Shown in pieces: positions 3 to 58,641 of a stretch of DNA of 64,000 nucleotides. The DNA is taken from NCBI RefSeq assembly GCF_907164915.1, contig NC_061870.1, forward strand, positions 1,533,501-1,597,500. The letters run 5' to 3'. Within the stretch, counting starts at the first letter, position 1. Every line of letters starts with the position of its first letter. Made by a program: the position numbers and the translations under genes. The stretch is from Impatiens glandulifera. Its lineage: Eukaryota; Streptophyta; Magnoliopsida; Ericales; Balsaminaceae. Under the pieces are notes generated by a model. It saw only the letters and a list, made by a program, of their open reading frames with translations. It made no database searches and was not told the DNA's origin.

Positions 3-1493
3 GACATTGAACTGCGAGTTCAAGCGGTCGGCGAATTATACCGGGAATGACACGAGTACCGATTCAACAAACTTTATAAACACATGTTACCGGGCCTAAC
101 CGACGAAGAATGTTTCAGAAGGCTGAAGGAAATAGAGGAAACAGTCATGAGCCTCACAAACGCCGAAACCCTTCACGAAGCCTTGGACCGATGCACCATC
201 GTGAGGCCGCGAGCTCGGCTACAAAAGCTAACCGTACGAATCCAGAAGATTAAGGAAAGGTACGTCGAGGGAACACCGAAGGCTAACTTACAGCTCTTGG
301 TGTTAGAAAAACTTGAGAAAGTGAAAGGAGAATTCGCAGAACAAATTGATCGGCTTGAGGCGGTGGTCAGACAACGAGGAATACCGCACTCTCTAGCTTC
401 TGAGACCGATGACGGTCAGAATCATGGTGCAACACCTCCTCGGGCGGATCCGGTGATAAACGAAACCGATGAAAGGACGGAGACTCCTCTCACCGCGCAA
501 CTTCAAAATGAACAACCTGGGGTTTCAAAACCGGGCGTCACAGAAGAAAGGGTCAAGACCCATATTCAAGAGTTCGCAGACTCAACGGTTCACCCATTAG
601 AGGAGAAAATGAAGAAAACCGTGAGCCTGGCACTCCGGTTCGCCAACAAGACAAGGAATGATCTCGTCAAGGCACAGGACCAGATCACAGATATCGAGGC
701 TGATTACCGGGACGAAACGGTTTTGTGCAACAATCATCTTCGGCGAACCGAGGCCTTGGAAGATACGACCTCAGGGATAAAGGATGACTTGGATCAGCTT
801 GAAAGGGAAACCGAACAAGGATTCACGGAGGTAGATGAGGACCTGGGAAGGAGGGTCACCGATCTGGAAAACAAGAATGCGAGCCTTGAAGACCGCAACG
901 ACAAGCTCGAAGCCGACCTCAAGGCGCTCACCGCACAAGTAGATGAATTAATCAAGGCCAAGGTGAATGCGGATATTGCGGTTGTGGAGGCAAATGCCTG
1001 AGCGGCTAAGGAAGTCCAGGATGCGCTGGACGAAGAAGCAAGATTAGCAAATGAGCCACCGCAACTTACCGAAGAAGAAAGAGCCGAACGTGCACGAAAC
1101 ACAACGGCTAGATATCCTGGACTTGCAAAGTCCATAGCCGCTCAACAACGAGAAGATGCAGAGCGGCTAAATGCACAAAAACAAGGGCTCGAAGAATTTG
1201 CAACCGCTCACAAGAAGAAGAAAACGGCGGCCCTTTCCTCTTCGGTTCCGGCGAAACGGAAAAGGAAAACATCAAAGAAGGCTCAGGTAGTCGGGGTACT
1301 GGAAAGGATCACTAACACGGTTATTGAAAGTCAACCGGACCCGGCCACTCACACCGAAGATGAGGATGAAGAACATCTGGCAGGGCGTTCTACAAGACAA
1401 AGAGTCTCCGATACGGCCAGTCAACCGCAACCGGTTAAGAGAAAACGGACCAAGGATATGATGGCCGGCTTCAATTTCTCCGACTCAGAATAG
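3..1493 (+). pseudogene. Post-pol ORF C, C-terminal part (family B), broken
   Basis: One reading frame of 497 codons is open from the window edge to the TAG at 1491-1493, apart from TGA stops near 51 and at 999-1001. It aligns through its length with the uninterrupted 877-residue ORF C at 46502-49135: both share the block ELYxEWHEHRF (the first TGA replaces the Trp), a long charged coiled-coil region, a Lys-rich tail and an end like FNFSDSE / YDFTDSE. The N-terminal cargo domain lies outside the window. No enzyme motif or membrane segment is seen. The protein is of unknown function; the coiled coils suggest self-assembly and the basic tail a nuclear signal, both inference. The stops make it a pseudogene. 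Confidence 0.75.
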
Positions 1494-26300: not shown

Positions 26301-27038
26301 ATGAACACCAACTCCTTAGCAAAGAAGATTCTATTGGAAGATTTTAACTCAATCTACCAATATGAAGATCATGAAGTCAAAGAAATGTTCTTAGCCGTAG
26401 AAAGAAGCGGACTAAGAAGCTTCCTCGAAAACAGATTCATTCTTGACTACCTAGTAGTCGAAGAATTCTTTCAAACCGGAAAAGAAGTGCATCGAGATAT
26501 CATCGTTGCACAAGTCTACGGTCAGAAGTTCTTATTCAGCGAGACGGATTTCGCTGTATACTGCGGTTTGCCCAATGAAGGGGTAACCGACTTAACATAC
26601 TCCCCGGTGACCATGGAAGAGATGTGTCGCCGGTTCTCAGGATCTGACATCCCGGTTAAACCCTGGGGTGCTAAAAGTCAACTTTCTCATAAGTACCAGC
26701 TTCTCTGTGAGATTCTGGGAAAGTCCGTTTTGGGCAGAGAGAAAAATTACTATTACACTCAAAGGCTCTTCGAGATGATGATCGCTGTAACGGTTGGGAC
26801 ACCGGTTAACTGGTCCTAGATCATCTTCAGCAACCTGAAGAAGATGCTCCTCTCCAACAAAACCGGCTACGCTCCTCAGCTAAGCGGTTTCTGTGCAAGT
26901 CTGGACATCTACTCCGGACCTTTCGTAACCCTCCATCCAAGGCATGTGCTCACCAAGGAAAGAGTACAAGAGATGATCGACCGGTGGGAAGCAGTCAAAG
27001 CTAGAAGAAATCAAGCGGCTGAGTCATCCAACGTCTAG
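26301..27038 (+). pseudogene. Post-pol ORF A, cargo-domain protein (one TAG)
   Basis: The frame has 246 codons with one in-frame TAG (26817-26819, after VNWS). It aligns with ORF A of the other family (50906-51661) and with the N-terminal ~200 residues of ORFs B and C. Shared features are a start DFNSIYQYEDHE, an EFF motif, FSETDFAVYCGLPNEGVTDL (about 78-97), a mid-protein LSHKYQLL helix and VNWS (about 169). The last ~70 residues are basic and charged. No signal peptide, membrane helix or known catalytic motif is seen, so it is unlike an envelope protein. Function unknown; distant similarity to the putative plant transposon protein domain is possible but was not tested. Confidence 0.7.
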
Positions 27039-27479: not shown

Positions 27480-28260
27480 ATGTCTGCTGAACTCAGAAAT
27501 ACCCTTATCGTCGACTTTGAAGACATCAAAGATAGTGCATACTATGAATGTATTTTTCAGCATATCATAGATTCAGGACTCCAAGGCTTTCTTAAAGGTT
27601 CAGACACTATCCTCGTGGAGGAGGTGTGTGAATTCTTCAACAACGGTCATATCCTAGATGATGGTAGCATCCGCACCATCGTCGACGGTCAATTCCTTCA
27701 GTTCACCGAAGAGGAATTCGCTAACTTCTTTCACCTTCCAACCGAAGGCTTTTCGGACATCCCAACGCCATGGTCTTCTCCTAGGGTTTCTCCTACCGGC
27801 TAAGGAAGACTTCTTCCAGATCTTCTCTTCTTCCTACGCTCCGATCAAGGACTTTGGAAAGAAAGAAACCCTCGCTCCTCACTACCAAGTCCAGCATGAC
27901 TTGGTTCACAGGTCTATCATGGGCCAAATGCCTAATCAGAACTACAACCGGGAGGCATTTGACATCATGATAGCCATCATTCGAAACTCGTCGATCAACT
28001 GGGCAACCTACCTCTTCAACAAACTGAAGCGGCTCATGACCGCTGCAAGGGGAAGGACCAGCTTCGCTCCTCAAATCACCCGGTTCCTGATGTCTAAACG
28101 TCGCAACCTTGGAACCGGTGTTCCGGTTGGACCATCCAACACTATCACCATACTTATGATCCACCGGTGGATAACAAGAATTGAGGAACGATCACCTGAA
28201 AACACCATGGAAAAGTGGTACGAAAGGAGGATGGAAGGGGGATGGTTCACAGAAGACTAA
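27480..28260 (+). pseudogene. Post-pol ORF B, cargo-domain protein (frameshift)
   Basis: Two overlapping frames form one gene: 27480 to about 27770 and then the next frame to 28260. Residues run from IVDFEDIKDSAYYECIFQHI through VEEVCEFFNNG, FTEEEFANFFHLPTEGFSD and, after the frameshift, a QHDLVHRSIMGQMPNQNYN block, SSINWATYLFNKL and a basic C-terminus. The intact counterpart is 49680-50384 on the minus strand. The gene consists of little more than the cargo domain, with no coiled-coil tail. The frameshift lies soon after FSDIP. Function unknown. Confidence 0.68.
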
Positions 28261-28772: not shown

Positions 28773-31657
28773 ATGGATCTAAGCAAAGCTCCTTTCCAAT
28801 GGATGTTGCAAGTGGATTTCGCGGATATTGATGAACATGCCGACGACAAAAACAAGACTGTTCTTCAACTTCTGAGAGATTTTGGGTTGGAGAAATTTCT
28901 ATCGGGTCCGTTCACCATTTATCCGGCGGCGGTGACGGAGTTCCTGGCGACGGCGACGCTCGCGAAGAGGAAGGTCTCCGCCACAGTCAACGGGAAGGCT
29001 ATTCTAATCACCGAAGAGTTATTTGCTGAAGCTCTCGGTCTGCCCAACACCGGTCTGGACCTAAAGATTGACCTAACCGCTGCAGAATCAAACGCTTCCC
29101 GGTTAGTGGTTTCTTTCTCAGATCAGGACCTGGTGATCCACTCTAGCCGGAGGAATAAGCTAAAACCGGAATACAGATGGTTGCTGACTGTCATCGCCCG
29201 CTCAATCCAGGGAAGAGGAGGCAACTTTGACAATCTGACTAAACTTAAACTCAGAATGTTGTTGGCCATTGTCCGCAGTGACAATGTGGACTGGGGATAC
29301 GCTATTTTCGAAGAATTTTGCCAGATGGTGATCAAGAAGGATGGCCGGGTTCAGGCCTTTGCAATGCAGATCGTCAAAATCCTTGAGTTCCTTAATGTGG
29401 AATTGGGTGAAGGTAAACCGCTTCCAATCACCAATATCCTCGACTCAGAGTCAATGATCGAGAAACCGGAGAAGGCGATCAAACCCAAATCCTCAAGAAC
29501 AAAGTCGTCCAAAGGGACCAGTTCCTCGGCTCCGCTGAAGAAGAAATCAAGCAGAAGAAACCGGCAAGAAAAGCGGTTGAAACCGAACCCCCACAAGAAC
29601 CCAAGAGGAGGAAGAAGGTGGCTGCAAGAAAGAGTTCCAACATACCGGCGGACTCCGAGAAAACTCTTTCCTCGGATAATCCACCAGAAAGAACCGCAGA
29701 CGTCTTTCAACCCATTCCCATCAACACCGTCGTTCCTACCCCCTTTCCGTCTAATTCTCCAAGGCAAACCGAATCCTCGGGGAGCCAAGAAAACAAGTCA
29801 GTCTCCAAGGAGGAAGCAGAGGTAAGCGTTCACTCTGAAACCTCCAAGTCACCTAGCAAACAAATTGACGAGGTAATAGCCAACGTGGGTTTAAACACCT
29901 CTGAAGCAATTGAGGATGCTATCCAAGATATCGCAAAGGAAACCGAAGAGGACGACGTGTCAAGTCGTCGCAAGCCAGTTGATCAGGTTGAGATACTTGA
30001 TCAGAGTGAAGCACAACTGGTCGAAGAAACGGCCAAAACAGCAGACATTACACCTCCGGTTCTAGAGGGTAATCTTGAAGAACAGAAACCATCCGGTTCT
30101 GCAGGAGGCAAGACAGCTCCAGAAAACCAATCGGCTCAAGATGGGCCATCTGACTCAGCCACAATACCTGAAGGTTCTGTTCAGGTCAACAAAGGCAAAG
30201 GGGTTCTTATCGAAGATTCAACGGTATCAGGTAAAGATACACCGCAAACCGGTCCTCAACCAGAAGTCATAACCGGGGACGAGGTTACTTTTACCGCAGA
30301 GCAAGAAGATAAAGTATTCGATGAACTTCTCAAGGACATGAACAAGGGTGCAAGTGACGCATTAGCTCCATACTTCATGTGGGTGAAGCTCAGGTGTGAG
30401 ACAAAGTTATCCGACATGGTTCCAGGTCTAGGTGGCAACAAACATTGGGACAGGCTCGTCAGGCTGGAAGAGAGGGCCCTCCAATTAGCTCACATCGATC
30501 TCATCCAACCAGCGTTCAGTAAAACCGCAGTACTTCTTGAAAATGCTCGGTTACAAGTAGTGGAGAATGCCTTTCAAGAAACTAAAGGAGCGACGCTAAA
30601 TCCGATTAAAATGAGAATGGCCGAACGGTTCATTGCGGTGCGAGAAAAGATCATACAAAATCTCGATCTTTTTGACATGCAGTGGAGGCAAGGTTGTCGA
30701 AGCCAACTCAACAATGCTGACCTATATCAAAGTAAGCCATACTATGCGGTTGGTGAGACATCCGGAACGACGGAAAACCAGGAACAAAACACTTCTCAAA
30801 CCGCTAAAGCTTCGGAAATCGATCAAATTAAGCAAGCGGTGGTTGATACAGTTGATTCATGCCTTGGAGGATATAAAACCGCAACCGATGAGAGGATTGC
30901 AACGGCTGAAGTTAATTTGTCAAACTCTATCAGGTCCATGATAGATACGGCTATGCAGACCTCAGTCAAAACCTTGATCGCCGAGTCCATCCAAACCGCA
31001 ACCGCTCCATTATTAGACATGCTGCAGGCAATGGCCATTCAAATTGGGGAGATGTCCAAAGTTCAAGTCAGCAAAACTCAAACGCAAATCGAATCGGATG
31101 CTAAAACCGCTAAAAGGCTGCAAGAGGAAGAAATGGAAAGGATACGGTTGCAGAAGGAGATTGAAGACAAAGACTATGAGTTTGCCCAGAAGTGCAACGA
31201 GGAGGAACAGGCCAACATCCAGAAACTCCCACCGGTTCAACCGTCCCATTCAATGAACACAAGGAATAAGAAGAAACGAAGCGCGGTTGTAAACGTAATT
31301 AAGCGGGCCGAACAAAGAGCTGTTGTACCAATCGCGTTAAATGTGCAACCGCTTGATGAAGAAGAAGAAGAAGATGCTGAGGAACTTAGCCAGCGGAAGA
31401 GAAGGGCAACTGAAGGCTCAACCGCAACTCCAAGCTTCAGACCAACTATTGCTCCACTGCGTCCTCCACTAAAACCGGTCTGTGCCAATTTTGGGTTCAG
31501 CAAAAAGACTCCAAGCCACTCAAGTGTATGGACCGGAATGCTGATTGACGCTGCAAGACGCGACAGGGAGTGGAAGGCAAGAGAAGAGGAAGAAAGAAGG
31601 CAGCGTGAGAAAGAACTTGAAAAAGAGCTTCACAAGGGGGGACCATCCAAGCCTTAA
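28773..31657 (+). pseudogene. Post-pol ORF C, long cargo-domain/coiled-coil protein (frameshift)
   Basis: About 960 codons in two frames. The first frame (28773 to about 29540) holds the cargo domain: DFADIDEHADDKNK, TEELFAEALGLPNTG (about 88-102), DNVDWGYAIFEEF. After about 29540 the second frame continues to TAA 31655-31657. Comparison with the second copy at 33206-35623 shows one missing base in the context GCTCCG|CTGAAG. The remainder is Ser/Lys-rich, then acidic, then a predicted coiled coil with ESIQTATAPLLDMLQAM, a Glu/Arg-rich helix and a tail ending HKGGPSKP. No transmembrane segment is seen. Function unknown. Its C-terminal half is quite unlike ORF C of the other family, although the N-terminal domains match. 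Confidence 0.72.
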
Positions 31658-33204: not shown

Positions 33205-33205
33205 G

Positions 33206-37172: not shown

Positions 37173-37177
37173 AGTTT

Positions 37178-41458: not shown

Positions 41459-41494
<36 letters not shown>

Positions 41495-42333
41495 GATGCT
41501 TCATTTTTAAAGTGTCCAGATTGTCGGGTCGTGAGTTGTGGTTAATTTGGATATATATGTGAGAGTAAATGGATACTTGGGTCGGATTGTGGGTTGACTC
41601 GCCCATAAACTTAAAACGGTTAAAAATAAAATTAAAAATGATATTCGTATGTTTCAAACTTGCAACCTAACAAAACAAATACAATCATTTAACCAACTAA
41701 GCTAACAACACTTTATATTTAAGATTCAACATCAAACTTGATTAACGCGAGACATTTTAACAATAATACTTCAAATTTTTAAATAACTAATATATATATA
41801 TAATGATGCTTAATTTTTAAAGTGATCGGATTGTCGGGTTGTGAGATTTGGTTAATTTGGATATATATGTGAGAGTAATGGATACTTGAGTCGTATTGTG
41901 GGTTGACCCGCCCATAAACTTAAAACGGTTAAAAATAAAATAAAAAATGCTATTTGTATTTTTCGAACTTGCAACATAACAAAACAAGTACAACCTTTAC
42001 CAAGTGTGATTGAGATGTCGTTTGCCGATGGATAATAGGCTGGTATCATTTGAAAGTGGTTAAACAAATATGAATCAAATATTTGATTGACAAAGTGAAA
42101 GTGTAAAGTCACGAGATTAGAGATTCATTCGAAAAAATATGTGATGAAACATGTGAGAAAATAAGTTGTTTTACCGAAGTGAATAAAATGTGGAATGAGA
42201 GCGTTCTGTTTTTTATTTTAATATATTATTCGTGATTTATTAAGAAATTTAAACATTGAATACATTTTATTATAATTTTTAATTTATTTTGTTTTTATTC
42301 TTATACGTGTGCATCGCACAAAATTTTTTCTAG
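41147..42333 (+). mobile_element. Probable non-autonomous Helitron
   Basis: It starts TCTATATATA after an A (41146) and ends CTAG (42330-42333) before a T, as Helitrons insert between A and T. A short hairpin GTGTGCATCGCAC (42307-42319) lies 10 nt before CTAG, the classic Helitron 3' end. No Rep/helicase is encoded. The inside holds about 2.7 tandem copies of a 310-326 bp unit that begin at 41166, 41492 and 41802. There is no target duplication, as expected. Confidence 0.6.
41166..42005 (-). repeat. Tandem ~320-bp units with tRNA-like A and B boxes
   Basis: Read on the minus strand each unit contains TTAGCCTAGTTGGTTAAAGG (A-box-like) and, about 40 bp on, TTGTAAGTTCGAAAC (B-box-like), the arrangement of a Pol III promoter in a tRNA-derived SINE. 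In copy 1 these lie at about 41363-41376 and 41323-41337. The third unit is truncated. Confidence 0.55.
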
Positions 42334-44790: not shown

Positions 44791-44869
44791 TGATATGGTC
44801 ATTGATGTTAAAAACCATTCCAATTTCTTGTGTAGAAATTGTGACTTTAGTTGTCATTGATATTGAAAC

Positions 44870-46176
44870 TGTTAGGATCTAGATCGCCGCTGATGGACCG
44901 GGGGTTGGACCGGTTAGCGGTTCTCACTCGTAGGGTGGTGGTTAATCCGGTTAGAGATTAACACCGGGGTTTCAATACTACACAACCTGTCGCAAACCCT
45001 TGAACTAGGTTCAAGCGCGGAAGAGGTTTGCTTTCAGGTTGAAGCTGTACGCTTGTATGATAGGCACAGTCGGTTTCGGATGATGGAGATTTGGAAATGG
45101 TGGGTCGGTTTCGGTAATCTGGATATTCGGTATGGTTAGTATAAAGTCGGTTTGGAGCGGTGTGGTTAAGTTAGTCGGTTAGATAATGAAGCCGGCAGAA
45201 AGTAAATAACAAGACAGATTTTATGGATGTTCGGAGATAAAACTCCTACGTCACCCTTTCCTCTCGAAGCCGCGAGAAGGATATTCACTAAGGAATACAA
45301 GTACAATCCGATCGAGACTTATTTCCTGCTCGATAATACTCTTACAATTCACACCGAAATTGTAACACACACTTAGAATTTAGCACTTAGGCTTTCTTAG
45401 AATAACACAGTTTTATCACTTGTAGTAAATGCTCTCAACGCTTCACTTGTCTAGCTTGATGTCCCGCTTAAGTCACTGCATTTACTCTTCTTCAGCTACC
45501 CCTTTTATAGGTGAAATATGCCAACGGTCATATTTCACTGCCTTGAATCTGATTGGCTGATCAGAAGTGCAGTGATTCAGTGATTCAGTGTTTCAGACCT
45601 GCGGTCGTTTCCTCAGACCTGATGGTCAAGCTCAGACCTGGCATTATGTCTCAGACCTGCCGGTCTGTTCTTCCGTTTTGTAAGACAAACCTGTTGGGTT
45701 TGTCTTTTACTCAATGTAGGCACTGTCTGTACTTTGAAGATTTCTTTTCTGGCTTATCCCGAAGTAGAAGGATCCGGTAGTACTGTTTTCTGCAGCCTAC
45801 AGTCTTTCCTCAGACTTGCATGGATATGGAAGTATTCAGTCTGCTCCTTTGGTATCATTCTCAACAGATACCCAAATTGTCTTCTTGTACTGGTCGGTCA
45901 TTTGACTTGGCCGAATGTCTTTTGGTAGTGATGTAACCGGACTTCTTCGGTTATTCTTGTCTTGTGGATGATCGGCTGTTTGATGATTCCGGTTTTGAAC
46001 TTTGGCCGATCCTTTCTTTGTGCGGTCACGTTCCGAATACTCTTGATCGGTTTGGTAGCTTTGACCGGTTAGTTTTCTTTAGTCGGTTCTCTTGTTCATC
46101 CGGTCCGGTTCCTTGTTCCTGCATGGAAGGTTTATTTAAGTTAGGTTTATTTGAACCGGTCTTATTTTATCTAACA
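44870..46176 (-). repeat. 3' LTR of the family-B element
   Basis: 1307 bp. On the plus strand it starts TGTTAGGATCTAGATCGC and ends CTAACA, followed by the inverted PPT (ATTTCTCCCTTTTTGATT). TATA box 45503-45509 (minus), hairpin 44999-45015, and a run of CAGACCTG motifs at 45590-45670. Confidence 0.93.
45590..45670. promoter_or_regulatory. CAGACCTG repeat cluster upstream of the LTR TATA box
   Basis: TCAGACCTG occurs about five times at 18-25 bp intervals, 85-160 bp upstream of the TATA box in element orientation. The same cluster is in the other family-B LTRs (58045-58115; near 2340-2420 and 38340-38420 inverted). Regularly spaced repeats here look like factor-binding sites; no factor can be named. 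Confidence 0.5.
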
Positions 46177-46501
46177 ATTTCTCCCTTTTTGATTATTTTA
46201 TTTAAAATTATCAAAATCATGTAAGTTTGCAACCGTAGGCCGGTTGTTTTGTTTGTCCGGTTTTTGAAAAAGACTTAGAGGATTTTTCGAAAAATTTTGA
46301 GAGAGAATTTTGAGAAAAGTTTTGGAAGAGTCTTTATCTTTTATCTAACAATTTCTCCCTTTTTGATTATTTTATTTAAAATTATCAAAACTAAGTAGAA
46401 ATGCAAAATAAGGCCGGATTCAAAAATAACTTTATATATTTATATATAGATGACCGGAAAAGACAAAATACTAAGGCCAATAAGAAAAAGAAGGATAGTC
46501 C
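46177..46501 (-). repeat. Two PPT copies before the 3' LTR
   Basis: ATTTCTCCCTTTTTGATT occurs at 46177 and again at about 46350, each followed by ATTTTATTTAAAATTATC. The sequence in between repeats the LTR edge (TTTTATCTAACA near 46340). Confidence 0.8.
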
Positions 46502-49135
46502 CTATTCAGAATCCGTGAAGTCATAGGCGCTCTTCTTTTTCTTCTTCGGTTGCTGTTGCCCGGTCTGTTCGGAAGATCGTCGCCTTTTAGATCGGGACCG
46601 CAGTTGTTCTTCAACTTCATCCTCGACTTGGTCGGCTGGCTGCGATGTACTCGGGATGACCGGTTCAGAGATCTCTTTGAGCATCTCGGCTATCTGAACT
46701 TTCTTAGGAGCCTCCCTTTGTCTCTTTTTCGGTGCTGAAACAGAGGCGGCCGCCTTCTTCTTCTTGTTTTCCTTTGCATAGCCTTTCAGCCTCCGTGCTT
46801 CCCTTTCCAACCGCGCGGCATCCTCCGCAGCTCGGTTGGCCACTTTCTCAGCAAACCCTGGGAATATGGCCTCAGCATTTTTAAGTCGTGCGGCTTCCAC
46901 TTCCGCTTCGGTCAGTTGAGTTGTGCGCGGTGCCTCTTTATCTTTGCTAACTTCGGCGTCCAGCGCATCCTGGACCCTCTTAGCTACTTGAGCATCAGCC
47001 GCTATAGCCGCGGCCTCCGCGTCCACCTTAGCCCTTAGAACTTCGGCCATTTGTTCGGAGAGCGCCTTCACTTCGGCCACGAGACTCTCGTTTGTCTTCT
47101 CGAGTTCGGAGACCCGGTTAAGTGTCGTGTCGACCCGTTCGAGGTCTTTCTTTAAATCGGAGGTCACAGTCTCCAGAGTTGCGGTTCGCTGAGCCCATTT
47201 ATCGCGCTCACCGGCCTCTTCCCACAGTCCGGTGCCGAGTTCTGAGAGTCGTTCTTGATGTTTTTCCAGAAGCAGCTTTGTCACGTCGGTGAACTTCAGG
47301 GCTGAATCAACTATGCTCTTGGATCTATCCTTGAATGGTTGAAGCTTGGACACGTCGTGTTCTTGTATGCGGTCATCGATCCGTTCCGATATGGATGCTT
47401 CAAGATTTTGAAGACGGTCCTCAACCCATTCTTTAGCAGCCCATTCTTTAGGAGGGTCTGAAGTGGTGACTTCCGGTGGTGGGGGAGGTGATTGCTCGGT
47501 GGGATCTGGATCGGCTCTGTCATTGGATTCTATCGGTTTCGCAAGCTCTTTTGGAAGTTCTAATGTTGCCGCAATATCCAAGATCTGTGCCGCATCTTCC
47601 AAGATCGGTTCCGCATCCTCCAATATCGGTGCCACATCCTCCATTGGAGGTGTTGGACAGTTAACTGGAAACTTATCGATTACGGGAGCAGTATAGACCG
47701 GTATTTTCATTCGGCTGCATATCGTTTCCAGCCGCTCAATTTCTTGAAGTATTTCCCTTTTGCCTTTTTCAAGCCTTGTTAACACCCGCGGCGCTACGGT
47801 GTCTACCGATCCCGTCTCGTTGTGCTCTTCCTTAATTCTCCGGATGCGCTTTCTTAGTTTCCGAAGTTGGATCATCGGTAACAGGAGACAGGTTCGGCTT
47901 TGTACTTCTTGAATTGTGTTGGATTTTGTGAGGCTCAACATCATGTCCTCTACTTCATCCAACCTGTCGATGCATTCCTTTTCCGTGTAGCCTGGTAGGG
48001 TATTTCTATATGTTGTACCGAACCGGTGCTCATGCCACTCCAAGTATAACTCTTCAACGTCTTCTGCTCGCTTGTTGACGCCCTGAAGGATTTTCTGGGT
48101 TAATCTATCGGCCTCTGCTTCTTCGGCCTCCTCCCTCTCCATGTTGTAGCCTTCATCATTGGCTTCTTTATCAACCCCTTCTTCACCCTCGGTGGTCTCA
48201 GGGTTGGTGTTTTGTTCGGCATCGTTTGGACTCCGAGCCGAATGATCGTTGTCATTGACCGTTCTATCATCGGTCCTCTCCGTGTCGGTTTCCGCAGAGA
48301 CCCACTCCTCATCTTCTGTTTGTTGAGGTGGGTCGGAGAAGATTATCTTTTCTTTGCCTTTTCCTCCGGTCTTTGCTTCGGCCGGGGCATCTTTCTTCGC
48401 GACTTTCTTCTTTCGGCCACCTGTGGAGCTGGGGGCCGGCTGTTTCCTTTTAAGGAATTGCTTTGATCTGATGAGGCAGCGTTTTGCTACCGCAACGCCG
48501 GGACCGATGTTGAGATTCAAGTGGAGGAAGATCTTACCGAGGGGCACGGCGTATCCCCACGACCGGGTTGAGTCCGGTTTCACCATATCCATGAGGTTGC
48601 TGAACACCGATCTTGCCCAGTTGACCTCTTTACCCTCCATCAGACCGATTAGCATCTTGATTTTGTCCCGTGTGAGGTTGTTGAGGTTTCCTCCCCTTGC
48701 CAGGATCGCCCTTGTGAAGATGTCACATATCGGGATATACTCCGGCCTTAGCATTTGTTTGCTCCCGGATGTTTTGATCGGCGCATTGGATGCCGATAGA
48801 ATGTAGCAAGCCGATTCAAAGGTGTCCTGGTCTATTTCTGCCGTTGCATCCTGGCCGGAAGTTGGAAGACGCAGGCTTTCGGCCACCAATTCTTCTGTGA
48901 GCTCTATTCGGGAACCGCATACAGTCGCGGTAATTTTTTCGTAGGCGATAGTTGCGGTGTTGAAGAATTCTTCGACCGCATCTTTGTAAATGACGTGAGG
49001 ACCGCCTAGGAAATATTCCAGACCGGTTTTAATCAGCCGGTCAATAACTGCTTTCGCCTCGGTCGTACCATTCAACCGGATTTCCTCGAAATCCACCTGA
49101 GAGTAGAGTTTGAACAGAGCCGAATCACGCCCCAT
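46502..49135 (-). CDS. Post-pol ORF C, uninterrupted, 877 aa
   Basis: Start at ATG 49135, about 110 bp after a TATA box. Residues 1-220 are the cargo domain: VDFEEIRLNGTTEAK, EEFFNTATI (about 55-63), ELTEELVAESLRLPTSG (78-94), RPEYIPICDIF, VNWARSVFSNLMDMV (171-185). Then come a Lys-rich linker (about 230-270), a strongly acidic stretch (280-350), two long coiled-coil regions (about 350-500 and 590-760) separated by a Pro-rich part, and a basic tail with KENKKKKAAA, RSKRRRSS and KKKKKSAYDFTDSE. No signal peptide, membrane helix or enzyme motif is seen. The tail suggests nuclear entry and the coiled coils oligomerisation (inference). The C-terminal two thirds match the remnant at 3-1493 but hardly ORF C of family A. 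Function unknown; being open while gag and pol are not may reflect chance or constraint. Confidence 0.85.
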   Translation of the reverse strand: MGRDSALFKLYSQVDFEEIRLNGTTEAKAVIDRLIKTGLEYFLGGPHVIYKDAVEEFFNTATIAYEKITATVCGSRIELTEELVAESLRLPTSGQDATAEIDQDTFESACYILSASNAPIKTSGSKQMLRPEYIPICDIFTRAILARGGNLNNLTRDKIKMLIGLMEGKEVNWARSVFSNLMDMVKPDSTRSWGYAVPLGKIFLHLNLNIGPGVAVAKRCLIRSKQFLKRKQPAPSSTGGRKKKVAKKDAPAEAKTGGKGKEKIIFSDPPQQTEDEEWVSAETDTERTDDRTVNDNDHSARSPNDAEQNTNPETTEGEEGVDKEANDEGYNMEREEAEEAEADRLTQKILQGVNKRAEDVEELYLEWHEHRFGTTYRNTLPGYTEKECIDRLDEVEDMMLSLTKSNTIQEVQSRTCLLLPMIQLRKLRKRIRRIKEEHNETGSVDTVAPRVLTRLEKGKREILQEIERLETICSRMKIPVYTAPVIDKFPVNCPTPPMEDVAPILEDAEPILEDAAQILDIAATLELPKELAKPIESNDRADPDPTEQSPPPPPEVTTSDPPKEWAAKEWVEDRLQNLEASISERIDDRIQEHDVSKLQPFKDRSKSIVDSALKFTDVTKLLLEKHQERLSELGTGLWEEAGERDKWAQRTATLETVTSDLKKDLERVDTTLNRVSELEKTNESLVAEVKALSEQMAEVLRAKVDAEAAAIAADAQVAKRVQDALDAEVSKDKEAPRTTQLTEAEVEAARLKNAEAIFPGFAEKVANRAAEDAARLEREARRLKGYAKENKKKKAAASVSAPKKRQREAPKKVQIAEMLKEISEPVIPSTSQPADQVEDEVEEQLRSRSKRRRSSEQTGQQQPKKKKKSAYDFTDSE

Positions 49136-49679
49136 GTTAAAGAGTTTGAGAAAGTGAGAAAGAGAGCCGCTTCAAAAGAGTTAGAAAGCTTAGAGAGAGA
49201 AAGTAGATTCGCGTGAGAATGAAATAAAATGACCGAATGTCCCTTTTATAGATGCGGTTTGGAAGCCCAACCGTCCCATCAATAATGGGCGGGAATTTTC
49301 CCTCCAAAATGAAAAGGCGCCAAACTATGGGCGGTAAAACAAAAGGAGGTGGGCGGCAAATTTGAGCGGGAGATTTCCCTCCAAAATCCTTTGCTTATGT
49401 CATTGATGACGCACTCTTCTTCTAGAAACCGATTGATTGAACGGTTTCTAAGTTCAATTGATTATTTAGAGTGTTAACAAATTAGGCAGATTTCATGTGA
49501 CCGGAAAAGAACGCGGTTATAGATTAAAGAAGTGAACCGGTTACTTAGATAAATGTTCAAAGAATTGAGAAGACACGGTCATTTAAACTGAAATGATATT
49601 AAAATTCAAGAGATAGCAGAGAAAGGCAACCGATTATAAGATTCGGTACAGAGATAGGCATACAGAAACAATGTATAGC
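49136..49679 (-). promoter_or_regulatory. Spacer B-C with putative promoter of ORF C
   Basis: On the minus strand TATAAAA (49244-49250, context CATCTATAAAAGGGAC) precedes the ORF C ATG by about 110 bp, with a leader rich in CTTTCTCTCTCT. The remainder holds GC-richer repeats similar to the spacer before ORF C of family A. Confidence 0.55.
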
Positions 49680-50384
49680 CTATTCAAAAGACATTCTCCA
49701 GAGTCGTTCTCTTGCCGAATCACTGTCGAGGATGTTTGAAGAGAAAGTCGGTGTGCCCGGTCCGAACTCTGGTCGGTACCCAAGAATCAGCTTGCTGATA
49801 TGCGGTGCATACCCGAGACCTTTCTTGGTCAGCACCATATTCTTTAAGTTTTCCCATATGACCGATGACCAGTTGATGGCCGATTTGCAAAGAATGTGGG
49901 TCATGATGTTGTAGGTATTCCTAGAATACCGTTGATTCGGTGATTGACACAGAATTGACCGGGTCACGATTTCGAGCAGTAGCTGACCGTGACTAGCAAG
50001 TTGGGTTTTTGGCCCAAAGTGTTCCACCGGAGAGGGGGTGGCCGACAGATATTGCGCGGTTTCAAATCCCGCAAGGTCCTGAATAGTCGGAAAGTCAGAG
50101 AAGCCTTCAGTGGGTAGACCGAATAGTGAGGCAAATTCATCCTCGTCGATCCAGAACGTGTGGTCTCTGACAGTAGAGACGATATACTTCTCCCTGATGC
50201 AGGCGCTTCGAAACAAGGCCTTGACATCGTCTAGAAGAATAGGACCGGCCTCTTCAAGAAACGGTTGAAGACCGGTTTCAGCAAGAGAGTCATACATGAA
50301 TTTCTCCTTAGTAGTGCAATCCCTTATGTCCATGCAAGAGTTGAAATCGATGCAAAGAAAGTTTCCCAGAGTTCTGCTCGGCAT
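49680..50384 (-). CDS. Post-pol ORF B, uninterrupted, 234 aa
   Basis: The ATG at 50384 was chosen because it follows a TATA box and CT-rich leader and the protein then starts MPSRTLGNFLCIDF, like the other cargo genes; the frame is open 61 codons further up without homology. It is almost only the cargo domain: GLQPFLEEAGPILLDDV, FRSACIREKYIVSTV, IDEDEFASLFGLPTEGFSDF (about 83-102), a QLLLEIVTRSILCQSPNQRY block, AINWSSVIWENLKNMV (about 175) and a short tail with YAPHISKLIL. Function unknown. It is the intact partner of 27480-28260 and the best minimal version of the domain. Confidence 0.82.
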   Translation of the reverse strand: MPSRTLGNFLCIDFNSCMDIRDCTTKEKFMYDSLAETGLQPFLEEAGPILLDDVKALFRSACIREKYIVSTVRDHTFWIDEDEFASLFGLPTEGFSDFPTIQDLAGFETAQYLSATPSPVEHFGPKTQLASHGQLLLEIVTRSILCQSPNQRYSRNTYNIMTHILCKSAINWSSVIWENLKNMVLTKKGLGYAPHISKLILGYRPEFGPGTPTFSSNILDSDSARERLWRMSFE

Positions 50385-50905
50385 GATTTCGGTATTTGAG
50401 AGAGAGACGGGATTCAAGAGTATCAGATGTGATCTTGTGCTTTCGGATGTGATGAAATGAGTAGAGTATGGCTCCTTATATAGGATCGGTTTTGGAGGGA
50501 AAATCTGAACATTGATGGTCAGTTTTGTTTTATTAAGGAAAGGAATCTTTACCTTTTCAAGGCGCATGGGGAAGGGGCAAATTGCAAAGCCCTAGGTAAA
50601 TGTTAGTTGGGAAGTAACCATATTAGTTTGATTTTAAATGTGCGGGTGGTTGGGGGTTATTTCATTGATTGGGATTATCTCATTAAATGCACTCAACACA
50701 TAATCGATATTAATTAGATAGAAACCGAAAATAGTAGAGGCAATGCCGAAAAATGGCATACAGGAATGATGAAGAAAACATGAAATCAAGAAAGACACAA
50801 ATAAAGCCGAAAGAGACATGGATGAAGCCGATATGATCAAACTTGAGTTGGTTAAGAATACATCCGGTACATACTGCAAAACGACCGGATGCAGGAAGGA
50901 GTAAC
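50385..50905 (-). other. Spacer between ORF A and ORF B
   Basis: Apart from the promoter of ORF B this stretch shows no coding similarity. Frames crossing it overlap ORF B or ORF A and lack homology between copies. Confidence 0.5.
50476..50482 (-). promoter_or_regulatory. TATA box of ORF B
   Basis: TATATAA on the minus strand (context ATCCTATATAAGGAGCC), about 92 bp before the ORF B ATG and followed by a leader with CCGTCTCTCTCTCAAA. Confidence 0.55.
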
Positions 50906-51661
50906 TTAGCGGGCGCGGGGATTGAATTCTTGAGGGAGGTTGAAGTTCCTCCTCCTCCATTCTCTCTCAAACCGATCATAGAATGAATCGGTTGCTTCTC
51001 TTGTGAGCACCTGAGCATGGTTTAGACCTTCGCCAGGACAGGTCGGAACGCCAAGCTCCTCAAGAAGGCGACTTACTTGGGGGATGAAGCCAACTGACCG
51101 GGAGCCGATCATCCAAATGAGGACGTCGAATAGCACCCGGGACCAGTTGACCGGTGTGCTGGTGACAATGGCCGCCATCACGTTGAAAGCCGCGACGCAA
51201 TAGGTGTTGGTGACATCTCTTCCAAAGATGCCCCTTCCTATTACATCGTTGAGGAGCTGATACTCAGCCCTCAAGAGAGACTTAGAGCCATGATCATCAA
51301 CAGGCTCATCCAACCGGGCAAGGGAGAGGGAGACCTCAGCCTTAATATCGGCCGGAGGGTTAAGGTCTGTGATCCCTTGCTTAGGCAGACCGAAGCACCG
51401 AGCGAAGTCCTGCTCGGTGAAATCGAAGGTTATACCCCCAACCTTTGATTGGATATGGGTATCAAAGTGGGGTGTGCCCCGGAATACCCTGGCATAATAG
51501 TAAAATTCCAAGACGGATTCAGGGTAGATAGTTTGCTTGTCATCCAGAAAATACTAGAGGCCAGTATCTTCCAGTTTCTTGATCATCCGATACACCTCAT
51601 AGTGTTCGGTACTAGAGTAGGATTCAAAATCGACTTGGAGTATGTTTGGGAAGTGAGACAT
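50906..51661 (-). pseudogene. Post-pol ORF A (one TAG)
   Basis: The frame from ATG 51661 to 50906 has 252 codons with one TAG near 51555 (in GL*YFLDD, where paralogues have Gln or Glu). Features are SHFPNILQVDFESY at the start, ESVLEFYYYARVFRG, FTEQDFARCFGLPKQGITDL, LRAEYQLLNDVIGRGIFG, TPVNWSRVLFDVL and a basic, Arg/Asn-rich end. It matches 26301-27038 in order and length. A weaker TATA-like TATTTAAG (51728-51735) lies about 70 bp before the ATG. Function unknown; no membrane segment. Confidence 0.78.
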
Positions 51662-52179
51662 GATTGGTTTGCCTTAGTGAGAGGATGTTCTTGTGACTTG
51701 TGAGTGTTGTGGTGAACGTTTTCTTCACTTAAATACTAGATTAAGGACTATCCTATTGTCCAGGCATTAAATTGGATGACATGTACTAACTGCAGGATAA
51801 GAGATTTTGCATGAAATAGGCAAGTTTGCAGTCTAGGTGTCGGTCATAGGCCTGAACCGTGAAAGATATCAAAAGATCTTCACGTCTTTTTAGGTGCGAC
51901 CTGTTTTACTTTGAAAGGGTAATGTTGTAGAGCAGATATCCTTAACCTCTGATAACTATTCCTCTTCTGTTTGAAATTCAAATAATCTAGGGTAGCCTGC
52001 TTCCGAACCGGTCAGGTATCAGTTGTTCATCCCGATGCGGTTATTTGGTGCATGCACCAAGTAGCCGGTCGGTTTACTCTATCTGATGAACTGGGCGGTT
52101 CTTCCACAGACACCCCGAAGATTCGAAGTTCGACAGCTTAGGAAGAGTTACCGGTTTGTCTGTCTGAACCGGTTTCCCT
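51662..52179 (-). promoter_or_regulatory. Spacer pol-A with putative promoter of ORF A
   Basis: Non-coding. TATTTAAG (51728-51735, minus) is the only TATA-like candidate near the ATG of ORF A, weaker than those of ORFs B and C. The leader contains CACAAGTCACAAG, resembling the leader of ORF A in family A (CACAAGTATCACTC). Confidence 0.4.
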
Positions 52180-55100
52180 TTAAGCATCCTTAGGAAGGAT
52201 TTGGCTAATGTCGGTTAAGCCGAGAGTAAGCCTGAATTGAGAAAACTTAGCTTCCTGCAGCGGCTTCGTGAAGATATCAGCTACTTGTTGATCGGTCGAT
52301 ACGTATTCCAGCCGGATATGCTTCAGCGTGACATGCTCCCGGATGAAGTGATGCCTGATGTCGATGTGCTTGGTTCTGGAGTGGAGAATCGGGTTGTAGG
52401 TGATTGCGATGGCACTCGTGTTGTCACAAAAGATCGGTGACTCTTCGGCTATGACATCGAAGTCCTTCAGCTGCTGTTGGATCCAGAGAAGTTGAGAACA
52501 GCAACTTCCGGCCGCCAAGTATTCAGCCTCTGCAGTGGATGTGGCCACAGATGTCTGCTTCTTGCTATGCCATGACACCAGTCGGTCACCTAGGAACTGA
52601 CATGTTCCACTGGTGCTTTTCCTGTCGATCTTGCACCCTGCATAATCTGCGTCTGAGTAGCTTGTTAGATTAAAGGATGAGTCCTATGGGTACCACAGAT
52701 CGACATCAGGAGTGCCTTTCAGATACTTCAGTATCCTTTTTGCGGCTGTGTAGTGGGATTGCTTTGGATTTTCTTGGAATCTCCCACACACACCAACTGC
52801 AAACAGGATGTCCGGTCTACTCGCTGTCAGGTACAGTAGGGAACCAATCATGCCTCGGTATGCAATTTGGTCTACCGATTGACCCTCATCGTCCATGTCC
52901 AGTTTAATTGATGAGCTCATTGGAGTAGCCGCCGAGGAGCAGGTGTCCATACCGAATTTCTTTAGCAGCTCCTTGGTATATTTAGGTTGACTGATGAATG
53001 TTCCTTCCTTGAGTTGTTTAACCTGAAGACCTAGGAAGAAACTTAATTCTCCCATCATACTCATTTCAAACTTGTCAGTCATCATTTTTGAGAACTTATC
53101 ACATAATTTAGGATCGGTTGAGCCAAAAATGATATCATCTACATAGATTTGAACAAGTAGGATATGTTCCTTCTTTTCAAACTTAAACAACGTTTTATCC
53201 ACCGAACCGATGGTGAAATCATGTTCTAGTAGAAATGCGGTTAGTGTATCATACCAGGCTCTAGGTGCTTGCTTTAGACCGTATAAAGCTTTGTTCAGCC
53301 GGTATACATGGTTTGGAAATGCAGCATTTTTGAAACCGGGTGGTTGTTCAACGTACACTTCTTCACGTAGATCACCGTTCAGAAATGCACTTTTAACATC
53401 CATTTGAAAAACCTTAAAGTTTTTGAAAGCTGCAAAAGCTAGAAAAATCCTAATGGCTTCTATCCTGGCTACAGGAGCAAATGATTCTTCAAAATCAATG
53501 CCTTCTTCCTGTTTGTAACCTTGAGCCACTAATCTGGCTTTGTTCCTCGTGACCAAACCGTCCTCATTGAGTTTGTTTCTGAATACCCATCTTGTTCCTA
53601 TGACCGATTGATCTTTCGGTCTGGGGACTAGGTACCAGACTTTACTACTCTCGAACTGGTTTAGCTCTTCTTGCATTCCCAAGATCCAATCGGATCTGAC
53701 AATGCTTCATCTATTCTTTTCGGTTCAATCTGGGATATGAAAGCAGAGTTAAAATATCCTTCCAGAAGTTGACTCCTAGTTCGAACAGGTTCTGAAGGGT
53801 CACCTATAATTTGCTCAGGAGGATGTTTACTGTTTCTTCTGAGATTCAGTTCAGGAGTGTCTACCAAATTACCGTTAACTTGACCTAGGCTAGACATGTC
53901 GGTAGGCTGAACGAGATTGTCAGACCGACCGACTCCCTCGGATTGGACCGAAGTGTCAGCTTCTTGTTGTGGAACAGCTTGATCCGGCTGGGTATCAATA
54001 TTACCCATTTGGTCATGGACAAACCGCTTGAAGACCGGAGTCTCATCTTCACTATCAGAATGAATATCATTATTTTCCAATCTGTTGTGTAGATCAAAGC
54101 ATGAAGCAGTGTTGCTTTCAACCGATTCATCGAAAACAACGTGAATTGTTTCCTCCATGGTTGCAGTTCTATTATTATATACTCTATATGCTTTACTTAC
54201 TGCCGAGTACCCAAGCATGATGCCGGTATCGGTTTTTGCATCAAAAGCGGTGAGTTGGGTTTTACCATTTATATGAATATAACATTTACAACCGAAAATC
54301 CTGAGGTACTTGAGTTTAGGAACTCTGTTAAAATAAACCTCATTCGGTGTTTTGTTGTGAAATCTGTTTATTAAAGACCGGTTTTGTGTATAGCATGCAG
54401 TGTTGATAGCCTCAGCCCAGAATTTCTGAGCAATGCCGGAGTCGGCTATCATGGACCGTGCGGCTTCCTTGAGAGTCCGGTTTCTTCTCTCGGCCAGGCC
54501 ATTTTGTTGAGGAGTCCTAGCACTAGACAACTCGTGTCTAATGCCGGATTCATCAAGAAATGCAGTTAATGTACTATTGGTAAATTCGGTACCTCGATCA
54601 CTTCGAATGCTATTAATACGAGTTGATTTTTCATTTTGCAAACGCTTAAGGAGTGTGATCAGGTTTGATACAGTTTCACGTTTAGATGGTAGAAATATTA
54701 CCCATGTATATCTAGAATAATCATCAATAACTACCATGGTGTAGAGCATACCTCCTAGGCTGATGACCTGAATTGGTCCAAATAAATCCATATGCAGAAG
54801 GTCTAAGCATTGGCTAGATTGAATGTTTCCTTTACTTTTAAAAGATGACCTAGTTTGTTTACCCATTTGGCATGCTGAACAGACCTTATCCTAGTTAAAT
54901 ACTATATCAGGAATACCTTCAACTAGCTTTTTACCGCGAATGTAGTTTAAGGTTTTCATGTTTAGATGGTTGAGTCTCTTATGCCACAGCCAGGTTTGAT
55001 CAGTCTTAGCTATCATGCATATAGGATATTCTACTCTAGTTTTCCAGTCTACCTTGTAAATGTTACCAATCATATTTCCGGTTAGTAGTACGATGCCTTG

Positions 55101-55454
55101 AGAATTCTTAACTAAGCATGCATGTTTAAGGAATTCTACCGTGTATCCAGCATCACACATCTGACTAATGCTAAGTAGATTAAAACGTAGGTTTTCAACT
55201 AGAAGTACATTGTCAATGGTTAGGTTACCATGGACAATCTTACCCTTGCCCACAGTTTTACCTTTTGAGTTGTCACCGAAGGTAATTAGAGCACCGGTTA
55301 CTGATCTGATGTCGGTTAGCAAATTGCTATTTCCGGTCATGTGCCTGGAGCAACCGCTGTCCAAGAACCATTCGGAGTTTCCTAGCCGTTTCTTTGGGTC
55401 CTGCAAAATGTACATATTTACAACTGTTTGGTACCCACATTTACTTGGGTCCAC
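52180..55454 (-). pseudogene. Pol polyprotein of the family-B element (2 TAG, 1 frameshift)
   Basis: Copia order on the minus strand. Protease WFLDSGCSRHMTG and the integrase finger (HKRLNHLN, CSACQMGK) lie on either side of a TAG at 54891-54893. The integrase core (MDLFGPI, VIDDYSRY, NGLAERRNRTLKEA) follows to about 53680, where one base is lost in DPDWIL-like sequence. RT ([26 protein letters not shown]) follows to a TAG at 52684-52686, then RNase H ([32 protein letters not shown]) to 52180. The ATG at 55454 overlaps the gag stop by 14 nt in the +1 frame, exactly as in the element at 19148. Stops make it non-functional, but each domain is well kept. Confidence 0.92.
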
Positions 55455-57279
55455 ATGCGATTAGTCCCTTAGGTACCCAAACTTTGATAAACCGGACGGT
55501 CTTCTTTGCTAGGGTTTTAACTGTCTTTTTGACACTTGGTCTCGTGTATTTCGGTTTTCCTTCAAATGTCCTAAATGGTGATGGTCTTTGGTTCGGTAAT
55601 CTATGGTTTGACCTACGCGGTTCAGGGAAGTTTTTCTTATATCTGAGGATTTCGGCTTTTCTTTTCTCATGGTCAAGCCATGAATCGGTTGGGCCAACAT
55701 AATCGTATTTTAGCTTTTCTTCCCTATAATATGCGGTCTCCTCTTCTTCAGCTGTCCAGGTGCTCTTGAGAAATTTTATAAAGGGAAGGTTTCCTTTTAC
55801 AAGCCTTGCTTTCTCTATGGGTTTTCGGTCTTTAGAGCTATTTTCGTATCCTAGGCCAAACTTGCAACGAGGATGCCTATAGTGTTTATTCATATTCTTT
55901 ACTATATCGCTAGATCTCTTATAGGCGGCCATCTTATATTGAAGTCGGGCATTTTCTTCCTTGGTTAGTTCCCTAGTAGGTTCACTAGACTGTTCGGTCT
56001 TAGGATCTAACTCGGTTTCTAGAGTAGGAGTATCATCAGGTTGTATGGCTTCCGGTTCGGTTATGATAAGTACCTCTGGTTCTGTCGGAGTGGGTATTAT
56101 GGGATCAGTTCTAATGTTGAGGTGCTTAGGTAGCATGGTCAGTAGGTTCTTATATTCTTCTACCATGTCGTTCAATGCATTGTATAACTCATCTTTAGTA
56201 AATTCGTCGCAAGGAGAGTCAAATACATGTTCCTCATTTGCCATGAGGCAAGTGAGTTCATCATCACTATCACTGCGAGCCCATAGACTTCCTCCATCGT
56301 CGACTATCAGTGCTTTCGGTACCTCACTTCCTTCACCGGCTTGTTGATAATTGTTTCTGTCATTTTGATATTCCGGTTTCTGGGTATCCCTCCTTGGTTT
56401 CCTGCATTCCCACTTAAAGTGTCCCAAACAGTTACAGTTGTAGCATCTTATATTGGATTTGTCACCATAGTAGTTGTTTGTTGGTTGGCTTCTTTTCATG
56501 AACCTCCCAAATTTCTGTGCGAGCATAGCCATGGCGTCCTCTGTGAACTGTTCGGCGGTTTTGATCGGTACGGGTGCAGGAACCGGTGTCGGTGTCGGTG
56601 CAGGTACAGGAGCAGGTACAGCCGGTTCTGTAGATGTGATTAGTGCTCTAGTTGATGTTGAGGCCGAGACTTCCTCTTCGGTTCTAGATTTCATTTCGAA
56701 CTCATATGCCTTGAGATCTTCGAATACATCGTATAGTTTCATCTTACGTAGGCTCTTTGACTCCCTCATTACCATTGTATTTATATCCCAGGCACTTGGA
56801 AGAGATCTCAAAGCCTTCATAACTACCTCTTTGTTCTCATACTTCTTGCCCAGAGTTGCTAGTTCATCTAACACACCAGTGAACCGGTCACTCTATTCCT
56901 TCATAGTTTCTCCTGGTTTCATTTTGATGCTTTCAAATTTCTGTGTGGCCATCATTATTTTGTTCTCCCTTGTTCTTTCATTTCCTTCAAAGATCTGGAT
57001 AACCGTGTTCCATGTCTCCTTCGCGGTTTTGCAATCTCTGATCTTGCAGTATGTGTTTCTGTCCACGCTGTTGGAGATCCGGTTTCTTGCATGGTTGTCC
57101 AGGTTGTTCCTTCTCCTATCTTTAGCCGTCCATTCTTTTCTATCATTATCAATGAATATCGGTCCTTCGGTCAGAATGGATTCCATTTCATCATCCAAGG
57201 TGACTAGGTGCAGGTGCATGCGTGCCTTCCAGTTGGCAAAGTCATCACCTTCTAGCATTGGAGGCCTATCCTGATACAT
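55441..57279 (-). pseudogene. Gag of the family-B element (one TAG)
   Basis: One frame of about 612 codons from ATG 57279, about 30 bp after the primer site, to TAA at 55441-55443, with one TAG at 56893-56895 (MKE*SDRF, where family A has MKEFSNRF). The capsid-like region comes first (WKARMHLHLVTLDDE, LRSLPSAWDI), then a Pro/Ala/Val/Thr repeat stretch (PAPTPTPVPAPVP) and the zinc knuckle CYNCNCLGHFKWEC. The long Sirevirus C-terminal part follows (FDSPCDEFTKDELY, RHPRCKFGLGY, LPFIKFLKST). Role: particle assembly and RNA binding. The single stop may be the main block to full-length Gag. Confidence 0.88.
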
Positions 57280-57305: not shown

Positions 57306-57316
57306 CTCTGATACCA
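57306..57316 (-). other. Primer binding site (tRNA-iMet)
   Basis: TGGTATCAGAG on the minus strand, two bases after the LTR end, complementary to initiator tRNA-Met. Confidence 0.92.
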
Positions 57317-57318
57317 AT

Positions 57319-58641
57319 TGTTAGGATCTAGATCGCCGCTGATGGACCGGGGGTTGGACAGGTTAGCGGTTCTCACTCGTAGGGTGGTGGTTAATCCGGT
57401 TAGAGATTAACATCGGGGTTTCAATACTACACAACCTGTCGCAAACCCTTGAACTAGGTTCAAGCGCGGAAGAGGTTTGCTTTCAGGTTGAAGTCGCACG
57501 CTTGTATGATAGGCACGGTCGGTTTCGGATGATGGAGATTTGGAAATGGTGGGTCGGTTTCGGTAATCTGGATATTCGGTATGGTTAGTATAAAGTCAGT
57601 TTGGAGCGGTGTGGTTAAGTTAGTCGGTTAGATAATGAAGCCGGCAGAAAGTAAATAACAAGACAGATTTTATGGATGTTCGGAGATAAAACTCCTACGT
57701 CACCCCTTCCTCTCGAAGCCGCGAGAAGGATATTCACTAAGGAATACAAGTACAATCCGATCGAGACTTATTTCCTGCTCGATAATACTCTTACAATTCA
57801 CACCGAAATTGTAACACACACTTAGAATTTAGCACTTAGACTTTCTTAGAATAACACAGTTTTATCACTTGTAGTAAATGCTCTCAACGCTTCACTTGTC
57901 TAGCTTGATGTCCCGCTTAAGTCACTGCATTTACTCTTCTTCAGCTACCCCTTTTATAGGTGAAATATGCCAACGGTCATATTTCACTGCCTTGAATCTG
58001 ATTGGCTGATCAGAAGTGCAGTGATTCAGTGATTCAGTGTTTCAGACCTGCGGTCGTTTCCTCAGACCTGATGGTCAAGCTCAGACCTGGCATTATGTCT
58101 CAGACCTGCCGGTCTGTTCTTCCGGTTTGTAAGACAAACCTGCTGGGTTTGTCTTTTACTCAATGTAGGCACTGTCTGTTTGACAGTTGTCTGTACTTTG
58201 AAGATTTCCTTTCTGGCTTATCCCGAAGTAGAAGGATCCGGTAGTACTGTTTTCTGCAGCCTACAGTCTTTCCTCAGACTTGCATGGATATGGAAGTATT
58301 CAGTCTGCTCCTTTGGTATCATTCTCAACAGATACCCAAATTGTCTTCTTGTACTGGTCGGTCATTTGACTTGGCCGAATGTCTTTTGGTAGTGATGTAA
58401 CCGGACTTCTTCCGGTTATTCTTGTCTTGTGGATGATCGGCTGTTTGATGATTCCGGTTTTGAACTTTGGCCGATCCTTTCTTTGTGCCGTCACGTTCCG
58501 AATACTCTTGATCGGTTTGGTAGCTTTGACCGGTTAGTTTTCTTTAGTCGGTTCTCTTGTTCATCCGGTCCGGTTCCTTGTTCCTGCATGGAAGGTTTAT
58601 TTAAGTTAGGTTTATTTGAACCGGTCTTATTTTATCTAACA
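57319..58641 (-). repeat. 5' LTR of the family-B element
   Basis: 1323 bp. It differs from the 3' LTR mainly by a 15-bp tandem duplication (CTGTTTGACAGTTGT near 58178). TATA box 57952-57958 (minus). Flanked on the right by GAAAC. Confidence 0.93.

Follow-up and report, generated by a model that had tools for sequence, protein, structure and literature searches.

Introduction

A sense open reading frame (ORF) after pol has been reported in 74% of SIRE elements; these ORFs sort into 19 groups that resemble one another little or not at all (Neumann et al., 2019, PMC6317226). The role of these ORFs is open, and the proposal that they are env genes is disputed (PMC3414828, PMC6317226). We analyzed a window of 64,000 nucleotides (nt) from Impatiens glandulifera (contig NC_061870.1, forward-strand positions 1,533,501 to 1,597,500; assembly GCF_907164915.1), in which an abundant Sirevirus-like retrotransposon, hereafter the right element, carries three genes, A, B, and C, behind pol. 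An earlier sequence-only reading had set these genes apart from known Sireviruses, which may carry one env-like ORF; that contrast was too sharp, since post-pol ORFs are common in SIRE (PMC6317226). The SIRE eORF-3'F/env-like ORFs (PMC6317226; MASiVEdb, PMC3414828) are likewise sense ORFs between pol and the 3' long terminal repeat (LTR) of Copia elements with Sirevirus-like polypurine tracts (PPTs). There, however, an eORF or env-like gene is described that is very heterogeneous between elements, whereas A, B, and C are tandem paralogues with one domain in common and with no transmembrane-level hydropathy.

The Pfam domain PF20167 has already been described in the aORF of sunflower Athila elements (PMC11728184). 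The domain of A, B, and C is related to it, and C-type genes from a third I. glandulifera group pass the PF20167 cut-off; Athila, however, is a Gypsy element with a single such ORF, and the proteins of the window itself fall under that cut-off. The Retand ORFs with TRP28 (PMC11963269) are also accessory ORFs, conserved and located between pol and the 3' LTR, for which DNA binding is predicted, but they are antisense, belong to Gypsy elements, and represent a different Pfam family (PF04195).

The best solved fold match of the predicted models described below is VANC21, one of the VANC proteins (VANC21, VANC6) of the VANDAL Mu-like transposons (PMC5735166, PMC10398659), which are also encoded by transposable elements (TEs) and, like the genes described here, have regions that vary between families. 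It has been shown that VANC21 binds a short motif in the non-coding DNA of its own family and brings about methylation loss at these sites (PMC5735166). VANDALs are DNA transposons with VANA, VANB, and one VANC, in contrast to three paralogues in a retrotransposon; A, B, and C moreover have no significant sequence similarity to DUF1985, and no target-motif array was found. Plant mobile domain (PMD) proteins of Gypsy and MULE elements, with MAIL1 and MAIN (PMC5418596), represent another silencing-linked domain borne by plant TEs. Their profile similarity to A, B, and C is weak and appears in some comparisons, but no signal was obtained with five core PMDs.

Members of LTR families recombine during transposition bursts in plants (PMC5668417), a likely route for the movement of ORF A alleles described below; the present case differs in that the exchange involves a single ORF, with very high synonymous divergence, within a young backbone. 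A 2026 paper that mentions VANC as an example along with its own Tekay aORF leaves it to future work whether comparable ORFs occur in Tork and Athila and influence the methylation of those elements (PMC12844716). Our literature search, with most subscription papers outside its reach, turned up neither a set of tandem paralogues of this kind nor a VANC-like fold encoded by a retrotransposon, and no case of accessory-ORF exchange.

Three paralogous genes behind pol

ORFs B and C were recovered with the lengths, strand, and positions given by the sequence-only reading (Table 1). For ORF A the 252 codons were confirmed but the open frame was not: an in-frame stop follows 35 codons, and stop-free frames exist at other loci. 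A single N-terminal domain of about 200-230 residues is common to all three genes, as had been proposed. When the window was searched in six frames with phmmer, the open piece of A matched B (E 1e-17) and C (E 3e-07), and B matched C (E 8e-18). Using copy-enriched profiles, hhalign gave probabilities of 99.86% for A-B (E 4e-31), 99.79% for A-C (E 2e-28), and 99.65% for B-C (E 4e-25) over 204-219 columns. By sequence comparison, A, B, and C are clearly true paralogues.

The description of the set as a tandem family without a membrane segment also held. The highest 19-residue hydropathy mean was 0.82 in B, 1.16 in C, and 1.38-1.51 in three stop-free A alleles; the usual transmembrane threshold is 1.6. 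The tail of C had been credited with coiled coils and a nuclear-type character. Basic clusters were detected in C (residues 229-244, 791, 850, and 864), and the coiled coil, rated as likely, is supported indirectly by PF21924 (XRCC4_CC) matches in four of the 25 C members scanned (best E 7e-05). ORF B is acidic, with an isoelectric point (pI) of 5.4. Judged from this architecture, a division of roles among A, B, and C is plausible.

The left element of the window also has A, B, and C in this order, as fragments. A domain tree of 25 sequences from three gene groups, for which the tool warned of long branches, placed C in one clade (100/100, including L002, L005, and L007) and B in another (100/99). 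The A sequence of the left element (A_left) adjoined B with weak support (87/73), and a single A clade was not rejected (approximately unbiased test, p 0.229). The predicted grouping by gene across families was thus obtained for B and C and left undecided for A. Because B and C are each monophyletic across the groups, they were separate before the groups split; the old duplication proposed behind the set is supported by B and C clades that each span three gene groups. A may well have separated equally early.

Copies in the genome and selection

A search of the genome with B returned at least 150 near-full-length copies with at least 88% identity (17690 first-look candidates). The best 30 of the 150 listed matches, the window's own included, were fetched; this sample over-represents kin of the window's B. 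A stood before B and C behind it in all 30 copies. Frames without internal stops were found in 24 of the 30 for B, 19 for A, and 23 for the 5' part of C (C5').

Ratios of nonsynonymous to synonymous divergence (dN/dS) were calculated by the Nei-Gojobori method for comparisons within and between the A classes defined below. Mean values per class comparison were 0.16-0.21 for B and 0.20-0.29 for C5'. For A they were 0.16-0.35 within classes and 0.06-0.09 between classes, with 32 of 120 class I-III pairs left out of the mean (saturated synonymous sites). Locus L021, which has an intermediate A with 8 stops, was excluded from the class means and treated as class I in tree counts. The ratios point to purifying selection on all three ORFs in the lineages ancestral to the copies.

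ORF A as an exchanged cassette

ORF A has been swapped repeatedly between element copies. Neither this exchange nor the predicted fold described below was accessible to the sequence-only reading. By identity to the window's A, the 30 loci fall into class I (the window's locus plus 14 others at 90-98%, 15 in total), class II (six loci, 81-82%), and class III (eight loci, 73-74%), with one intermediate locus at 87%; B is 94-99% identical to the window's in the 29 other loci. Mean synonymous divergence (dS) between classes is 1.1-2.4 for A vs 0.11-0.13 for B. At 60-base resolution, the identity drop of class III covers ORF A plus a few tens of bases on each side, and that of class II runs from the pol-A spacer to about 75 bases short of the end of A. 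Upstream pol, profiled in six loci (two of class III, three of class II, one of class I), showed identities to the window of mostly 0.88-1.00 in 120-base steps, with the minimum at the last step before the spacer. The last 400 bases of pol are 88-89% identical to the window in class III and 94-98% in the others (BLAST); a low of 0.76 for class III at the last step falls on the edge of the fetched pieces. An apparent class II drop in the C linker was also discarded; it came from counting gaps as mismatches and from L022 ending at a contig edge, and vanishes in a gap-free comparison.

On a tree of B and C, the A classes need seven changes against a minimum of two, and the well-supported branches alone force five changes for class II and six for class I. 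The class labels are still more clustered on this tree than shuffled labels (0 of 200 as low). Each class forms one supported clade on a quick tree of A (Shimodaira-Hasegawa-like approximate likelihood ratio test alone), which is partly by construction as the classes were defined from A identity. Whole-family differences were rejected as an explanation of the classes, upstream pol being nearly homogeneous, and so was positive selection, given the low dN/dS between classes. Within the stretch examined only ORF A carries anciently diverged alleles, which is unusual. With such alleles on a young backbone, ORF A resembles a module for specificity or escape; it would then exemplify modular arms-race evolution within one retrotransposon family.

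Domain identity and predicted fold

The best reading is that A, B, and C are distant relatives of PF20167 (Transposase_32). The window proteins score below the 45-bit gathering cut-off (left C 33.1, right C domain alone 21.5, A piece 15.5), and the Pfam scan gave no PF20167 row for the window's B. C-type genes at two stop-free third-group loci of the same genome lie above it (L002, 53.2 bits; L005, 53.0 bits), and for L005 the match to the C profile reaches E 1e-85. A B-type gene stands directly before the C-type gene in all eight third-group loci fetched from at least 150 PF20167 matches.

All 24 matches to the C domain in a protein search (1401 candidates) were I. glandulifera models, several of them misleadingly annotated, for example as myosin heavy chain or titin-like. 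One, P0013, appears by eye to open with a B-like end and run into C, as if the predictor had fused neighboring genes. An A+B alignment gave no match at E 0.001 among 2103 candidates, and a mixed A/B/C alignment at E 10 gave one of 4084, an I. glandulifera fragment; in these word-based searches, which required shared 5-residue words and are no proof of absence, relatives of A and B outside I. glandulifera were not found. PDB sequence searches with A4 and B returned chance-level rows only.

AlphaFold models were obtained for B (predicted local distance difference test, pLDDT, 89; predicted template modeling score, pTM, 0.88) and for residues 1-232 of C (pLDDT 77, pTM 0.79). In a structure search the best solved match for both models was a DNA-bound chain of VANC21 (PDB 9lnj), and we predict for the shared domain a fold resembling the DNA-bound part of that protein. 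No DUF1985 (PF09331) row was obtained for eight proteins scanned or among the 25 families shown in a wider scan, and hhalign against DUF1985 in local mode stayed below 1%, with 2 of 40 shuffles as high. A motif pattern present in A (11/20), B (29/31), C (31/33), DUF1985 (30/34), and PMD (5/10) sequences was devised after viewing the sequences and was not used as evidence.

Matches to PMD (PF10536) and DUF1985 (PF09331) overlap in the genome at C1:21486506-21486949 and C2:15443476-15443898, which hints that the two Pfam families may be related. Clusters of full or partial PMD matches were observed at C1:149.5-150.9 Mb and C6:42.4-43.0 Mb.

Proposed function

We tentatively propose, at somewhat less than an even chance, that A, B, and C of the element are PF20167-related proteins under selection with a VANC21-like fold, likely nuclear and DNA-binding, that weaken host silencing. 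C would enter the nucleus by means of its basic clusters and would oligomerize through the likely coiled coil. By analogy with VANC21, all three proteins would bind DNA of their own element family and, once bound, would weaken its silencing. B and C would be the constant parts, and A the variable part setting which elements or sequences are recognized. Template switching between co-packaged RNAs while they are reverse-transcribed would carry A alleles from copy to copy, aided by the near-identical pol end and B on either side. Purifying selection is compatible with a function that serves the element, and the swapping of A with a variable module for specificity or escape. A bolder version, which we regard as doubtful, takes Sirevirus post-pol genes as the retrotransposon counterpart of VANC. 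They would form a three-protein, sequence-specific anti-silencing system with A as its exchangeable specificity cassette, and copies would switch target or escape silencing by swapping A. If true, the Sirevirus env-like ORF would be an anti-silencing gene, at least in this lineage. The question of the SIRE post-pol ORFs is now directly testable on a selected, ordered gene set with a predicted fold match to a DNA-bound anti-silencing protein.

The cis side of the anti-silencing reading is its weakest part: no convincing target-motif array was detected in the non-coding DNA of the elements by k-mer, CCGG, and tandem-repeat scans. No k-mer of the right element exceeded the shuffle maximum, two 8-mers of the left element lay just above it (8 vs 7), and few tandem repeats were found. 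CCGG was rejected as a target motif: it is enriched in the 5' LTRs (13 vs 3.0 and 15 vs 2.2 expected) but in gag-pol too (24 vs 8.6 and 25 vs 7.0).

Of other short motifs, AACCGG/CCGGTT lies far above dinucleotide shuffles in LTRs and gag-pol of both elements. The RM boxes of Sireviruses are CGG-CCG dyads (PMC2829016); CGG-N0-6-CCG was not enriched in either 5' LTR (1 vs 0.7 and 0 vs 0.5 expected), and ORF C has 14 CGG-N-CCG vs 5.2 expected. A bacterial-type promoter scan gave two promoter-like sites vs 4.8 in shuffles and is uninformative on plant promoters.

The basic clusters and PF21924 matches of C would also suit nuclear or particle-associated RNA accessory proteins, with C binding element RNA for export, packaging, or assembly and A and B as cofactors; the CERV protein of the Cer1 retrotransposon is needed for nuclear export of genomic RNA (PMC10309623). 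We consider such a role unlikely, as both models find their best solved match in a DNA-binding protein and B is an acidic protein consisting of the domain alone. Rather less likely, in our view, is that the proteins are distant PMD relatives acting as decoys that compete with host MAIN/MAIL1-PP7L silencing. PMDs are encoded by Gypsy elements, the host proteins MAIL1 and MAIN act in silencing (PMC5418596), and host PMD proteins interact with PP7L (PMC7156037). An alignment of ten mixed PMD-search matches with the A/B/C profile spanned 109 columns (E 0.0018, probability 14.9%), and seven remaining after removal of three DUF1985-like ones gave a probability of 4.6%, with 0 of 40 shuffles as high in both cases. 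In contrast, five core PMD proteins gave no signal against the same profile (36 of 40 shuffles as high), and global-mode alignments of the mixed set fell to about 1% or less. No PMD row was seen in structure searches of the models, which excludes nothing.

Envelope-like or movement proteins have been suggested for other Sirevirus post-pol ORFs, and the sense position after pol would agree, as would the coiled-coil domains that Sirevirus env-like genes have along with transmembrane ones (PMC3414828). The hydropathy of B, C, and the three A alleles nevertheless stays below transmembrane level, the B model has no predicted viral structure match at E 0.001 (best 0.54), and the best solved match is VANC21; we regard this explanation as improbable. 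Passenger genes copied along without a role for the element would account for the strong divergence of the proteins between families and for the many broken copies (stops in A in 11 of 30, in B in 6, and in C5' in 7), but with mean dN/dS well under 1 for all three genes and a constant gene order in the 30 fetched copies this explanation is already disfavored and appears very improbable.

Structure of the elements

The LTRs of the right element, which lies on the minus strand, are 97.7% identical. Integrase precedes reverse transcriptase, the Copia order (rve and SH3_retrovirus at 53661-54866, RVT_2 at 52684-53682, minus strand). No row for 55441-56874 or 52180-52578 was obtained in the Pfam scan of gag-pol; gag was placed by DNA similarity to the gag of the left element and RNase H by position only. 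Behind the 5' LTR lies what we take to be a Met-type primer binding site motif. This motif and a PPT present in two identical copies ahead of the 3' LTR are the grounds for calling the element Sirevirus-like; a PPT repeated as multiple identical copies in this position is a Sirevirus trait (PMC2829016).

Table 1. Positions of features in the window.
Feature	Position	Strand	Remarks
Further C gene at window edge, tail only	51..1490	+	six-frame phmmer E 4e-30 and 2e-25; precedes LTR 1825-3126
Left-family A	26301..27038	+	one stop after 172 codons
Left-family B	27480..28260	+	two pieces in different frames: 27480-27803, 27802-28260
Left-family C	28773..31657	+	two frames: domain ORF 28773-29825, tail ORF 29618-31657; PF20167 E 6.3e-08
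3' LTR, right element	44867..46176	-	identity to 57316-58641; 5-bp target duplication GAAAC; TG...CA ends from flanks
Spacer with polypurine tracts	46177..46501	-	AAAAAGGGAGAAAT stretch twice, copies identical
ORF C, 877 aa	46502..49135	-	domain PF20167-like, at about residues 1-230; tail charged, with basic clusters and a likely coiled coil
B-C spacer	49136..49679	-	found in 30/30 fetched copies
ORF B, 234 aa	49680..50384	-	domain alone
A-B spacer	50385..50905	-	
ORF A, 252 codons, one in-frame stop here	50906..51661	-	domain and short tail; swapped cassette
pol-A spacer	51662..52179	-	
gag-pol remnants, several frames	52180..56874	-	Pol_BBD, pre-integrase, integrase, RVT_2 by Pfam
5' LTR, right element	57316..58641	-	then presumed Met-type primer binding site

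The left element is a compound structure with three LTRs (29256-37175), the third being 31881-33204, and a second copy of C tail and LTR at 33206-37172 is about 75% identical to 29256-33204. In the element at the window edge (51-3126), the LTR after the C tail shares about 81% identity with the right element's LTR; for the LTRs at 1825-3126 and 37813-39125 the value is 84%. Tandem duplications of about 300 nt were observed at 10255-10846 (99%) and 41126-42003 (87-91%).

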